Assembly (NCBI GenBank): GCA_013297885.1
Contig: JAAFIR010000001.1
Coordinates: 124,001-188,000 of the forward strand
Length of the DNA: 64,000 nt
Source: Leptospirales bacterium
Lineage (GTDB): Bacteria; Spirochaetota; Leptospiria; Leptospirales; Leptospiraceae
Reading direction: 5' to 3'
Every line of letters begins with the position of its first letter. Within the stretch, counting starts at the first letter, position 1. Of the stretch, positions 9,861-13,753 are shown in pieces. The position numbers and the translations under genes were made by a program. A model generated the notes under the pieces. That model searched no databases. It had not been told where the DNA came from and was given only the letters and a program-made list of their open reading frames with translations.

Positions 9861-10065
9861 ATAGTGTTGGGAAAAATTAATTTGGCAAAAAAAATACTTC
9901 TTTACCACTTTGCAAAGTATATTTTATTTAAGCTGATGTTTGTTTAATTAAAATAAATTTTTTACAAAAAAATAAAATTCATTTTAAAAAATCCCAAGAG
10001 ATATTCTTAGAATTAGATTGACTTTGTATCCCATTTGTGCCAAAATTTATTATGGGAGAATTTTT

Positions 10066-10326
10066 ATGATAAAATCTGCAATGATTAGAGCTAGAGTTGA
10101 AGAAAATCTCAAAAAAGATGTGGACTCAATTTTATTAACATTAGGTTTATCTGCTTCAGAAGCAATTAATATTTTTTATAGCCAAATTAAATTAAACCAA
10201 GGAATTCCTTTTCAAGTAAAAATTCCAAATAATGTTACCACTAGAACTTTTAACGAAACTGATAATGGAAAAAATATTAAAAAATTTAAAAACAAAAAAG
10301 ATATGTTTGCTTCATTAAAAATATGA
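10066..10326 (+). CDS. RelB/DinJ family antitoxin
   Basis: The start at 10066 is preferred over the longer frame from 10018, because GGGAG lies at the right distance upstream. The 86-residue protein has the ribbon-helix-helix opening MIKSAMIRARVEENLKKDV and the DinJ-like LGLSASEAINIFYSQI, then a toxin-wrapping tail. Family members dimerise, bind DNA, and block YafQ-type toxins. The stop codon overlaps the toxin start by 4 nt. Confidence 0.88.
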   Translation: MIKSAMIRARVEENLKKDVDSILLTLGLSASEAINIFYSQIKLNQGIPFQVKIPNNVTTRTFNETDNGKNIKKFKNKKDMFASLKI

Positions 10327-10595
10327 GCTTAATTCCTTCCTACACAAAACAGTTTGAAAAAGATTTAAAACTTTGTAAAAAAAGAAAAATGAATATTGAA
10401 AAATTAAAAGATATTATTTCCAAATTAATTGAGAAAATTGAATTACCTAAAAAGAATAAAAACCACAAATTAATTGGCTCTAATTTTGGAAGAAGAGAAT
10501 GTCATTTAGAAACAGGTTGGTTGTTAATTTATAAAATTCAAGATGATGAAATTATTTTTGAAAGAACAGGAACTCATTCCGATTTATTTGATTGA
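10323..10595 (+). CDS. YafQ-type mRNA interferase toxin with altered active site
   Basis: 90 residues aligning well with E. coli YafQ by eye: NHKLIGSNFGRRECHLETGWLLIYK and FERTGTHSDLF match its conserved C-terminal half. The equivalents of catalytic His50, His63 and His87 are present as His48, His61 and His85. The equivalent of Asp67 is Gly65. In YafQ that Asp contributes to catalysis, so activity may be reduced, which would fit a decaying locus. The ATGA overlap with the antitoxin confirms the operon. Confidence 0.86.
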   Translation: MSLIPSYTKQFEKDLKLCKKRKMNIEKLKDIISKLIEKIELPKKNKNHKLIGSNFGRRECHLETGWLLIYKIQDDEIIFERTGTHSDLFD

Positions 10596-11108: not shown

Positions 11109-11240
11109 GATGACCAACTACAAATCAAAAAAACTAATTATTTTATTTTTATTAAGTTCAATTTTTTTATTCCCGACAAAAAAGGTGGAACTTTTTTTGA
11201 AATTGATTTTAAAAAAACCAAATTAAAAAAATCGAATTAA
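11109..11240 (+). pseudogene. Small secreted protein, apparently frameshifted at an A-tract
   Basis: ATG at 11109 opens MTNYKSKKLIILFLLSSIFLFPT split as a basic start plus hydrophobic core, a signal peptide. The frame as read ends at 11225. Shifting by one base at the A6 run 11178-11183 gives the better-looking continuation KGGTFFEIDFKKTKLKKSN, ending at 11238-11240, just 6 nt before the next gene. AAGGATTTT upstream may serve as a ribosome site. It may be a true pseudogene, a sequence error or a slippage-decoded gene. Confidence 0.4.
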
Positions 11241-11246
11241 ATTTTC

Positions 11247-11819
11247 ATGAAGTATTTTATTGTTCTAATTTTTTTATTTCAACAATCTTTGTTTTCACAA
11301 GGAAAAATAATTTTTTTTCATTCAATTTTAAATTTTGAAGGTGTCAGTGATGAAAAAGCAAGTTTAGTAACTGATAATATTTTAAAAAGTTTAGATAAGC
11401 CTGAAATTCAAATTTTACAAAGTACTAAAAAAAGTTTAAAAAGTATTTCTGAATTAAAAAAAATTGCTTCTGAAAATAATGCTGATATTGTACTAAATGG
11501 AACAGTAAGGGTTATTGATTCAGTAGAGTATATTTTTTTGTATAAATATATAAATGGAGAAAAAAACTTAGTTGATTTTAAAATAAAATGTATAGAAGAT
11601 AATTGTAAAAATTCAATTGATGATATAATCCTAGATGAAATATTATTTTTACCAGATGGATATGTTAAAGTAGAAAAAATTCCTGAGTCAGAGAAAAAAA
11701 ATAAAATCTCAAACAAATTAAAATCAAAAGAAATTATTCTAAGCGATTCAGAAATAAAAACAGAAAAAAAACATTTAATGAAACAGAAAATTTGGAAAAA
11801 AATCAAACAAGTAAATTAG
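11247..11819 (+). CDS. Exported protein, N-terminal part of a probable split gene
   Basis: 190 residues with a signal peptide (MKYFIVLIFLFQQSLFSQG). The mature part alternates strands and helices, with NADIVLNGTVRVIDSVEYIFLYKYI, reminiscent of TolB-like/FlgO-type domains that sense or bind at the envelope. The C-terminal 15 residues, after the A8 tract at 11764-11771, look unnatural (HLMKQKIWKKIKQVN). One base more in the tract would continue smoothly into the next frame, which carries the rest of the protein. The two frames overlap by 28 nt. Confidence 0.55.
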   Translation: MKYFIVLIFLFQQSLFSQGKIIFFHSILNFEGVSDEKASLVTDNILKSLDKPEIQILQSTKKSLKSISELKKIASENNADIVLNGTVRVIDSVEYIFLYKYINGEKNLVDFKIKCIEDNCKNSIDDIILDEILFLPDGYVKVEKIPESEKKNKISNKLKSKEIILSDSEIKTEKKHLMKQKIWKKIKQVN

Positions 11820-12277
11820 ATTATTATTTAGATAGATTGCCTTTAGTTTATAAGTCAATTTTAATTCCAGGTTGGGGTCAAACTTCTGAAAATAAAAAAG
11901 AAAAAGGTATATTAATTTTATTTGGATTTGGTTTGATTTTATCATTTGTTGAAAAATTTCAAAATGACTTAATTGATACGAACAACTATTTAAGAACTTT
12001 AGCTCTCACAAGTTATGTTTACCCAAAAGGGGAAGTTTTACCACTTTATTATTACCAGTATAAAATTTTGGAAAAACAGAGAGATTCCGCAGAAACTGGT
12101 TTAAATTTTTCTGAAAATTTTGCAATTTTATTTTATTCAATCAATATTCTTGATGTATTGTTAAACGAAAAAGATATTGAAAAAAGGTTTTTTATTAAAA
12201 GTAGTTTTAATAGAGAAAAAAATTTTGAAGGAGGTGTGAATGATTCTTATCAAGTTAAATTTCAAATTTCTTTTTAA
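11792..12277 (+). CDS. PGWGQ-motif membrane protein, C-terminal part of a probable split gene
   Basis: The apparent TTG start at 11792 is weak; the frame stays open upstream and reads KKTFNETENLEKNQTSKLDYY, compatible with fusion to the previous gene. The segment LVYKSILIPGWGQTSENKKEKGILILFGFGLIL contains the PGWGQ motif and a following membrane helix known from small bacterial envelope proteins. The rest is helical and ends in KFQISF. It overlaps the following outer-membrane gene by 38 nt. Probably part of one protein of about 340 residues with 11247-11819. Confidence 0.5.
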   Translation: MEKNQTSKLDYYLDRLPLVYKSILIPGWGQTSENKKEKGILILFGFGLILSFVEKFQNDLIDTNNYLRTLALTSYVYPKGEVLPLYYYQYKILEKQRDSAETGLNFSENFAILFYSINILDVLLNEKDIEKRFFIKSSFNREKNFEGGVNDSYQVKFQISF

Positions 12278-13088
12278 ATTTATTTTTCTTTTTTTCTTTT
12301 TTCTAGAAATTCAAAGTGAAGAGCCTAAAAAAAATTTTGAAAAAGATGAATTAATAGGTGGGAAAAGATTAATTAATTTTCTAGATGATAGAGGACCAAA
12401 TGGATTATCAAGGTTAAATAAAAAATTTTCTTTAGGAATTGGTTTTGATCGACTAAATGCTATAACTGCATTGAGTTTAAGTTATAACTTGAATCAATAT
12501 TTTTCTATTGGATTTAGTCATTTTTTTGGGAATTTTAATTCTTATTCATTAGGATCTGAATCTGAAATTCTAAATTCTAGGACTGGAGTTTTAAGTGCCG
12601 GTTATGAAGCAACCTACCAAGTCTCAACTCAATCATTTGGTGTTCCGAAATTTGGGAATGCTGCTTTTTTACAAATCTATCCATTTATGTTAATTGATTT
12701 TCCTGTATTTATTTCTTTACATTATGGTAGAACTGAGACCACTCAAATTATTAATAATGCTTCATTATTTCCTGTAAATATTTTAATAGATCGAAAAGTA
12801 GTACCTTATTTTCAATCCACAATTTACGAATTACCAAGTAATTATTATGGAGCTACAATAGGTTATAGATATATTGTTCCTGACAGAAATGTATTTGTTG
12901 GAATAGAGTTTGGAAGAATATATTTTCCAGAAAGAAATTTAAAATTTTATAACCGCCAAGGTATATTCGACAAAAATGCAGTTAGCTTAACAGAATATTT
13001 CATTTATGATTTTCAAATTAAAGATAGTTTTAAATTAGAAAAAGTTTTGGGTATAAATTATGCTGTGATGGTAGGAATTGTATTTTAA
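12240..13088 (+). CDS. Outer-membrane beta-barrel-like protein
   Basis: 282 residues starting after a strong GGAGGTG site at 12229-12235. The N-terminus has a long hydrophobic core (FKFIFLFFFFLEIQS) consistent with a signal peptide cut near residue 26. The body alternates Gly/aromatic beta strands (FSLGIGFDRLNAITALSLSY, YFSIGFSHFFGNF, YYGATIGYRYI) and ends in an aromatic residue, GIVF, as barrel proteins do. It is in one operon with the flanking genes, overlapping both. Function is unknown. Confidence 0.6.
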   Translation: MILIKLNFKFLFKFIFLFFFFLEIQSEEPKKNFEKDELIGGKRLINFLDDRGPNGLSRLNKKFSLGIGFDRLNAITALSLSYNLNQYFSIGFSHFFGNFNSYSLGSESEILNSRTGVLSAGYEATYQVSTQSFGVPKFGNAAFLQIYPFMLIDFPVFISLHYGRTETTQIINNASLFPVNILIDRKVVPYFQSTIYELPSNYYGATIGYRYIVPDRNVFVGIEFGRIYFPERNLKFYNRQGIFDKNAVSLTEYFIYDFQIKDSFKLEKVLGINYAVMVGIVF

Positions 13089-13753
13089 TGAATCAATTTA
13101 TAATTTTAATTTTTTTTATTTTATCTTGCAGTCCAAATCCTTTAAACCGATCAATTGGTTATAAAAAATTGAAAGTTGATACGAATAACAAACCAAACAT
13201 ATACATTGAGGAAATCTTAATTTATCTAAATCAAAATGGTTTTGATGATGCACAAAAAAAAACCGTTTATATAGAAAATTTAAAAAAAGCTTTGCTAGTG
13301 GCAATTTATAATTCTGGAAAATTTAAAGAAATATCTTTCGAAGATATCTACGATAAAAAGAAAGATTTTAAAGCAAAGATTAAAATTGAGAGTTGTTCCA
13401 AATCAAAATTTTTTCATTACCCTTTGAATAAAGAAAATGAGGAATTTTCAATTTTATTTTTTCCAAACCATAATGATCCAGATGGGAATTCTTTTTTATG
13501 GCCAACAATCATACCTGTTCTGCCATATTTTCCAATAACACCTTTATTGCCAAGATCTGGAAGAGCTGAGGTAAGTCTTGAATTTGAAATATTTTCTGGT
13601 AAAAATCCAACTAAAATTATATTATCCGAATATGAAAAATTTTCTTTTTTATTCTATGGTCTTTATCGAAAAAATGAAATTGAAAATTTATTTCCTATTT
13701 TGTATTCTAGAATTTTAGAAAAACTAACTTTGGATCTTTTAGAGATGAAATAA
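13088..13753 (+). CDS. Hypothetical lipoprotein
   Basis: 221 residues. The start overlaps the previous stop codon as TAATG. MNQFIILIFFILSCSPNP is a clear lipoprotein signal with Cys in ILSC. Later features are a Pro-rich stretch (TIIPVLPYFPITPLLP) and helical ends. I recognise no domain. By position it is the last gene of an envelope operon running from 11109. It is followed by a decayed minus-strand gene. Confidence 0.6.
   Translation: MNQFIILIFFILSCSPNPLNRSIGYKKLKVDTNNKPNIYIEEILIYLNQNGFDDAQKKTVYIENLKKALLVAIYNSGKFKEISFEDIYDKKKDFKAKIKIESCSKSKFFHYPLNKENEEFSILFFPNHNDPDGNSFLWPTIIPVLPYFPITPLLPRSGRAEVSLEFEIFSGKNPTKIILSEYEKFSFLFYGLYRKNEIENLFPILYSRILEKLTLDLLEMK

Follow-up and report, generated by a model that had tools for sequence, protein, structure and literature searches.

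An Open Reading Frame Split at or Beside an A8 Run in a Leptospirales Genome: One Gene with a Net −1 Frame Change and an Intact Orthologue

Introduction

Two overlapping open reading frames (ORFs) of a Leptospirales bacterium, the second in the −1 frame relative to the first, raise the question of whether they represent two genes, one broken gene, or one gene whose reading frame is restored during expression. They occupy positions 11247 to 12277 of the stretch of DNA analysed here (the window, 64,000 nucleotides from positions 124,001 to 188,000 of contig JAAFIR010000001.1 in assembly GCA_013297885.1) and overlap around a run of eight A's (A8). An earlier note on this DNA had proposed that they encode a single exported protein, interrupted in the run and perhaps rescued by transcriptional slippage. 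E. coli dnaX-type −1 frameshifting is a programmed ribosomal frameshift on an A-rich heptamer; it is mentioned in PMC3017870, on poly(A)/poly(T) frameshifts in Blochmannia genes, which also cites Tamas (2008) and Wernegreen (2010). Sequencing errors, too, commonly add or remove a single base in a homopolymer.

Avoidance of A/T runs sets in at nine in a large share of genomes, according to the part of PMC1088944 that deals with this question, where the reasons for such avoidance are described as inseparable and replication slippage is held to contribute, or possibly contribute, to it.

Reading Frames and the Position of the Frame Switch

The first frame extends on the forward strand from the ATG at 11247 to the stop at 11817–11819 (190 aa) and contains the A8 run at exactly 11764–11771, between a G and a C. 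The second frame has its last upstream stop at 11702–11704 and stays open over 11705–12277; the ORF called within it (11792–12277, 161 aa) begins with TTG. Codon log-odds were derived from a training set of 227 ORFs from the same 324,507-base contig, each 150 codons or longer. By this measure frame 1 scores +25.2 up to the A8 run and −1.1 over its last 15 codons past it, and the second frame scores +22.4 downstream of the run. If the switch lies at A8, these 15 codons, which lead up to the stop at 11817, are read in the wrong frame. Both halves give a clean coding signal, with no additional stop across about 343 codons. The earlier description of the locus, with a first frame that turns unnatural after A8 and a second frame already open upstream of it, is in agreement with these coordinates and with the switch in codon signal, and the frame switch as such is not in doubt.

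The summed codon score for every possible junction forms a plateau of 46–48 at 11753–11783, and the A8 run is situated inside this plateau. Junctions from 11786 to 11816 score 44–46, about 2 to 4 below the best, and those upstream of 11753 score 40–46, up to 8 below it. A run of seven A's at 11796–11802 is about 3 units worse than the best junction. The alignment of the C-terminal half to the orthologue described below is a statistically weak match, and it begins at the residues just past A8, so that A8 is favoured over the later A7. Another A8 run (11694–11701) was rejected as the switch point, the downstream-frame stop at 11702–11704 directly abutting it. From junction scoring and orthologue alignment, the A8 run is the best place for the net −1 change, with a junction elsewhere within 11705–11816 also allowed; the break is at or beside the run, much as had been claimed. 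In the predicted structure, confidence is low from residue 134 onwards (pLDDT under 50), and the junction falls within this lysine-rich segment behind the first domain.

One Gene and Its Orthologue

When the N-terminal half alone was searched in 61 genomes, three of them, including its own, gave matches at E 0.001 or better. The match in a congener (G003:C336, E 6.4e-4; Leptospiraceae bacterium MAG, JANYCR01, record JANYCR010000584.1) is a single, uninterrupted ORF of 326 codons, and the same ORF carries DUF5683 (E 3.2e-4). It is followed in the same gene order by orthologues of both genes that lie downstream in the window. The first of these window genes (12240–13088, forward strand) is an intact ORF of 282 aa, whose orthologue (L074:4163–5002) shows 30% identity (E 4e-27). 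The next (13088–13753, forward strand) is an intact ORF of 221 aa, a putative lipoprotein by eye, with 31% identity to its orthologue (L074:3441–4163, E 5e-30). ORFs in the cluster overlap by 38 and 1 bases in the window versus 4 and 1 bases in G003. We regard the stretch 11247–12277 as the gene that opens a cluster of three envelope genes, which is probably an operon. By arithmetic, the joined halves comprise 343 codons versus 326 in the intact relative, in line with the earlier estimate of one gene of about 340 residues.

The orthologue is only about 26% identical to the window protein and is too distant for a selection test. Direct BLASTP of the two window halves against it gave weak matches (E 0.003 and 0.063), the window gene was not recovered at E 0.001 when eight family genomes were searched with the whole orthologue protein, and a scan with the intact orthologue as query yielded no record beyond its own. 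Orthology accordingly rests on the N-half match, the common domain and the gene order. Among eight genomes searched, the second cluster gene was found, besides itself, only in G003 (E 3.4e-24), and in a search of eight family genomes it was likewise found in G000 and G003 only, which leaves a single orthologue for comparison. The N half also matches (E 8.3e-5) G002:C85:109433–109729 (L025), the N-terminus of a 966-codon open frame that reads by eye as a TonB-dependent receptor.

Relatives of the C-terminal half bear on the possibility that the window holds two separate genes, the second starting from the TTG at 11792. A TTG-started ORF of 161 aa is indeed present, and the second frame offers five TTG codons and one GTG codon as possible starts; the same frame contains no ATG, and no ribosome-binding site is seen by eye before the TTG. 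In the 61 genomes, the C half matched 22 other places, all in longer ORFs with an N-terminal part (273–550 codons, their mechanically set starts lying over 100 codons ahead of the match); 21 of these are uninterrupted and one has an in-frame TAG. No homologue encoded alone with the same start was found among these matches. The same 22 places were also checked for the arrangement that the earlier note had named as refuting a split gene, in which the homologue consists of two separate proteins divided at this boundary, and it was not seen there. The comparison with uninterrupted homologues, which that note had also suggested, thus yields an intact syntenic orthologue in a single ORF as well as these 21 relatives. 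Of 130 other DUF5683 places, only two lie in open frames that do not exceed 190 codons (lengths copied by hand); one contains an internal stop and the other starts 10 bases from a contig end. A named-genome scan with the C half, from which the window's own genome may have been excluded, returned 57 stretches that fit a pattern, of which none was confirmed. Judged from sequence, the two frames are one gene, and two independent genes are scarcely credible.

Some further features were observed in this family and near the gene. A congener DUF5683 paralogue (L020, G001:C124) has one in-frame TAG in an otherwise open frame of 404 codons. Upstream of the broken gene, 10063–10592 contains a toxin–antitoxin pair, with genes for a RelB-like antitoxin and a YafQ-like toxin (Pfam E 2.4e-13 and 2e-30). 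Directly before it, near 11110–11246, lies a short hydrophobic ORF in which a second frame is also plausible by eye, possibly another broken remnant.

Domain Architecture

The 5′ part of the gene (11247–11819) encodes a hydrophobic N-terminus that was recognized by eye as a signal peptide. The protein looks exported, as the earlier note had it; export itself is a prediction from this feature. The remainder of the N half has no Pfam match, and its profile comparison with congener CsgG/LpoB domains (probability 1.5) revealed no sequence-level link. A structure model of the N half, with a mean pLDDT of 58.7 (66–80 in residues 21–100), shows the order strand-helix-strand-helix-three strands-helix. 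In a Foldseek search of the PDB with this model, matches included PelC (E 1.5e-5), TolB (2.1e-4) and LpoB (8e-4), the overall range extending up to 9e-4, with TM-scores by query of 0.35–0.49 for these PelC, TolB and LpoB matches. By VIA, the model matched PelC (Z 11.1, rmsd 3.0, 110 aligned), FlgT (Z 11.0, rmsd 3.7, 124 aligned), TolB (Z 10.2, rmsd 3.2, 111 aligned) and LpoB (Z 9.7, rmsd 2.6, 99 aligned), with anticodon-binding-type domains slightly behind (Z 9.5 and below). These model comparisons support a broad PelC/TolB-N/LpoB-type fold for the N half, as a fold class rather than a family.

The 3′ part (11774–12277, forward strand, −1 frame) comprises the end of the linker and a domain with the PGWGQ motif. 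Its match to Pfam PF18935 (DUF5683) has E 5.6e-5 and 23.6 bits, below the curated cut-off of 26.7, and the domain is therefore called DUF5683-like only. Against four DUF5683 relatives compared by hhalign, it reached a probability of 98.3 (E 1.5e-14), and one of these four, the congener protein L004, itself scores 26.9 bits for DUF5683, over the cut-off. L004 is a 320-aa protein with CsgG/LpoB followed by DUF5683 within one ORF, and L010 is its close relative (74% identical in the N domain). The structure model for the C half was too poor to be used (mean pLDDT 35.4), and a search of a limited set of literature for DUF5683 together with Leptospira found no paper. Joined across the junction, the gene would encode one exported protein consisting of a signal peptide, a PelC/TolB-N/LpoB-type domain, a lysine-rich linker and a DUF5683-like domain.

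Possible Programmed Frameshifting at the A8 Run

The gene might yield two products in a set ratio, as dnaX does, by programmed −1 ribosomal frameshifting on A_AAA_AAA. This heptamer is found at 11765–11771, correctly phased for the frame that precedes it, and reading continues in the −1 frame, as such a mechanism would require. However, visual inspection of the bases preceding the heptamer shows nothing resembling a Shine-Dalgarno element, the downstream RNA is no more structured than shuffled sequences (z 0.10), and the heptamer site is missing from the linker of the orthologue. We consider a programmed frameshift highly improbable.

Split Genes and A-Runs across the Genome

A survey of split genes covered 1,785,620 of the 4,615,609 genome bases (39%), comprising contig C28 as a whole and all or part of 40 other contigs. 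At the strict setting, 433 A8 runs were intact, two were split by −1 without an ATG, one had GTG/TTG at the stop and three had a nearby ATG. The corresponding values for A9 were 125 intact, none split without ATG and two with a nearby ATG; nine A10 runs and 97, 12 and 3 runs of T8, T9 and T10 were intact, with no split at the T-runs. Split-like cases without ATG also occurred at shorter runs (three at A5 and one each at T5, T6 (C28:5873) and T7 (C33:42523)). At random positions, 31,645 intact cases were accompanied by 19 split-like ones without ATG, 8 with GTG/TTG at the stop and 164 with a nearby ATG. Splits are modestly enriched at A8 compared with random positions (Fisher p 0.03; 0.07 when all A/T runs of at least eight are pooled). 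A looser setting added one A8 case (C28:123746, +1, with a stop 7 bases past the run) as well as cases at shorter runs.

The two A8 splits, both −1, are the window gene and C28:71731–73007. The latter (L060:11731–13007), which lies outside the window, appears to be split at an A8 followed by C, in the same direction and context as the window case, and its C half contains an SH3_3-like domain whose score falls slightly short of the cut-off. Its relatives match only query residues 126–262 of the C part, so that the split of this gene rests on codon signal. Another candidate, C28:69651, was rejected because it is a normal overlap of genes in which a TTG at the stop serves as start. In the same region, pieces at L060:13100–13686 resemble by eye the N part of L014 (CsgG match E 0.036, below the cut-off) and are directly followed by a gene (L060:13717–15177) whose product has HSDR_N and N6-methylase domains; they probably represent a paralogue truncated beside a restriction-modification gene.

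These counts also bear on whether the lesion is a sequencing or assembly error in the homopolymer, with the gene intact in the organism. The gene has no second lesion, as would be expected of such an error. On the other hand, the assembly is otherwise clean, with 679 intact A/T runs of at least eight versus the two splits (strict setting), and the genome is rated 99.99% complete. A homopolymer-prone platform should break more runs, and a systematic homopolymer error is thus unsupported. An error at this position is distinctly unlikely.

Run lengths in genes were compared with their expectation from a synonymous-codon shuffle of 583 genes, for the first 986 kb only. The observed-to-expected ratio is 1.16 for A8, 1.00 for A9 and 0.22 for A10 (10 versus 45.0 expected), and A11 or longer runs are absent (0 versus 37.8 expected). 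For T8, T9 and T10 the ratios are 1.18, 0.56 and 0.29. Depletion in genes starts at A10 for A-runs and at T9 for T-runs; in the sampled part of the genome, runs up to A9 (or T8) show no depletion in genes and longer ones do. Relative to runs of nine, runs of ten are rarer in genes (10 to 171, sense-strand A-runs) than they are elsewhere in the sample (29 to 138, obtained by subtraction and covering both strands; p 0.0006). Rarity of long A-runs in genes is expected if such runs contract through replication slippage or if selection acts against them. Since avoidance of A-runs in genes begins only at ten, A8 would be expected to slip little, and it is probably only weakly slippery in this genome.

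Possible Slippage Rescue of the Split Gene

The explanation to which the earlier note pointed, rescue by transcriptional slippage, would mean that RNA polymerase adds A's at the run in some transcripts, giving enough full-length protein for a functional gene, as proposed for Buchnera and Blochmannia. The locus resembles genes of this class in that a single frame change at an A-run separates two otherwise open frames with clean coding on either side, in a window of low GC content (23–29%). Support from elsewhere comes from the portions of four papers that treat such runs: eight Blochmannia vafer genes with homopolymer frameshifts are described as possibly corrected by slippage (PMC3017870), in E. 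coli and Buchnera, transcription insertions show an exponential increase as runs become longer (PMC5574713), and bypass at eight A's was reported for human apoB, where about a tenth of the product is restored (PMC1088944), and for laboratory drift of a methyltransferase gene (PMC3812077). Several observations argue against it. The presence of A8 and A9 in genes at or above expectation suggests little slippage, by the logic set out in the relevant part of PMC1088944; the run is shorter than the A10 from which avoidance begins in the genes of this genome. Rescued splits would be expected to accumulate, yet two were found in 39% of the genome. The linker of the only orthologue has no A-run longer than six, and the split is not conserved there. 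In addition, the sections of the genome-wide E. coli/Buchnera study considered here describe no restored-frame case (PMC5574713). The rescue claim is not supported by these results; it deserves some weight but is unlikely. If it were true for A8, more such splits would have to be reread as functional genes.

A further possibility is that slippage on the A8 run, in transcription or in replication, serves as a low-level switch in this leptospiral relative with its full-sized genome. The first gene of the operon would then make a soluble PelC/LpoB-type domain and the full-length protein in a ratio set by the run, and C28:72216, which shares the A8-then-C context and the direction, would be a sister case. 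We regard this as quite improbable.

Probable Reading: A Recently Disrupted or Switched-Off Allele

The reading we favour, and hold to be reasonably probable, is that of a recently disrupted or switched-off (OFF) allele produced by contraction of the A-run, which would make little full-length product and involve no programmed device. The net −1 change would lie in the linker, at or very near A8, and the simplest origin would be the loss of one A by replication slippage. As it stands, the gene would mainly produce a truncated exported domain ending after 190 residues, and the DUF5683-like part, lacking an ATG of its own, would be made only via occasional slips of RNA polymerase or the ribosome on the run. 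The lesion is read as recent because nothing else in the gene has decayed. Clean coding in both halves and two intact downstream ORFs imply that it is very recent, not real, or tolerated through the remaining product. The case illustrates how genes in very AT-rich leptospiral relatives can look split at A-runs.

Comparison with Known Systems

In domain order and size, the joined protein is similar to the CsgG/LpoB + DUF5683 proteins of Leptospiraceae (L004 and L010). These are encoded by single uninterrupted ORFs, whereas the window gene is split and its N domain is too diverged for a Pfam or profile match. With E. coli dnaX it shares a phased A-rich heptamer, but no stimulatory elements were found here.

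The tssM1 gene of Citrobacter rodentium, as described in the part of PMC4256274 concerned with it, is likewise interrupted right after an A-run, where slippage would restore a long product. In that case the run is A11, a transcriptional frameshift of 20–25% was reported and both forms are needed; the run in the present case is A8.

The gene is also similar to the poly(A)/poly(T) frameshifts of Blochmannia, as far as these are presented in the relevant part of PMC3017870, in having a single homopolymer frameshift in an otherwise intact frame of an AT-rich genome. The Blochmannia cases belong to reduced endosymbiont genomes, and some of the splits are kept between species; the present case concerns an A8 run in a 4.6 Mb genome, and the single orthologue of the gene is uninterrupted. 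The window gene looks more like an isolated lesion than a member of this tolerated, rescued class: we see in it a frameshifted gene of the ordinary sort, broken in a well-known way that involves no new mechanism.
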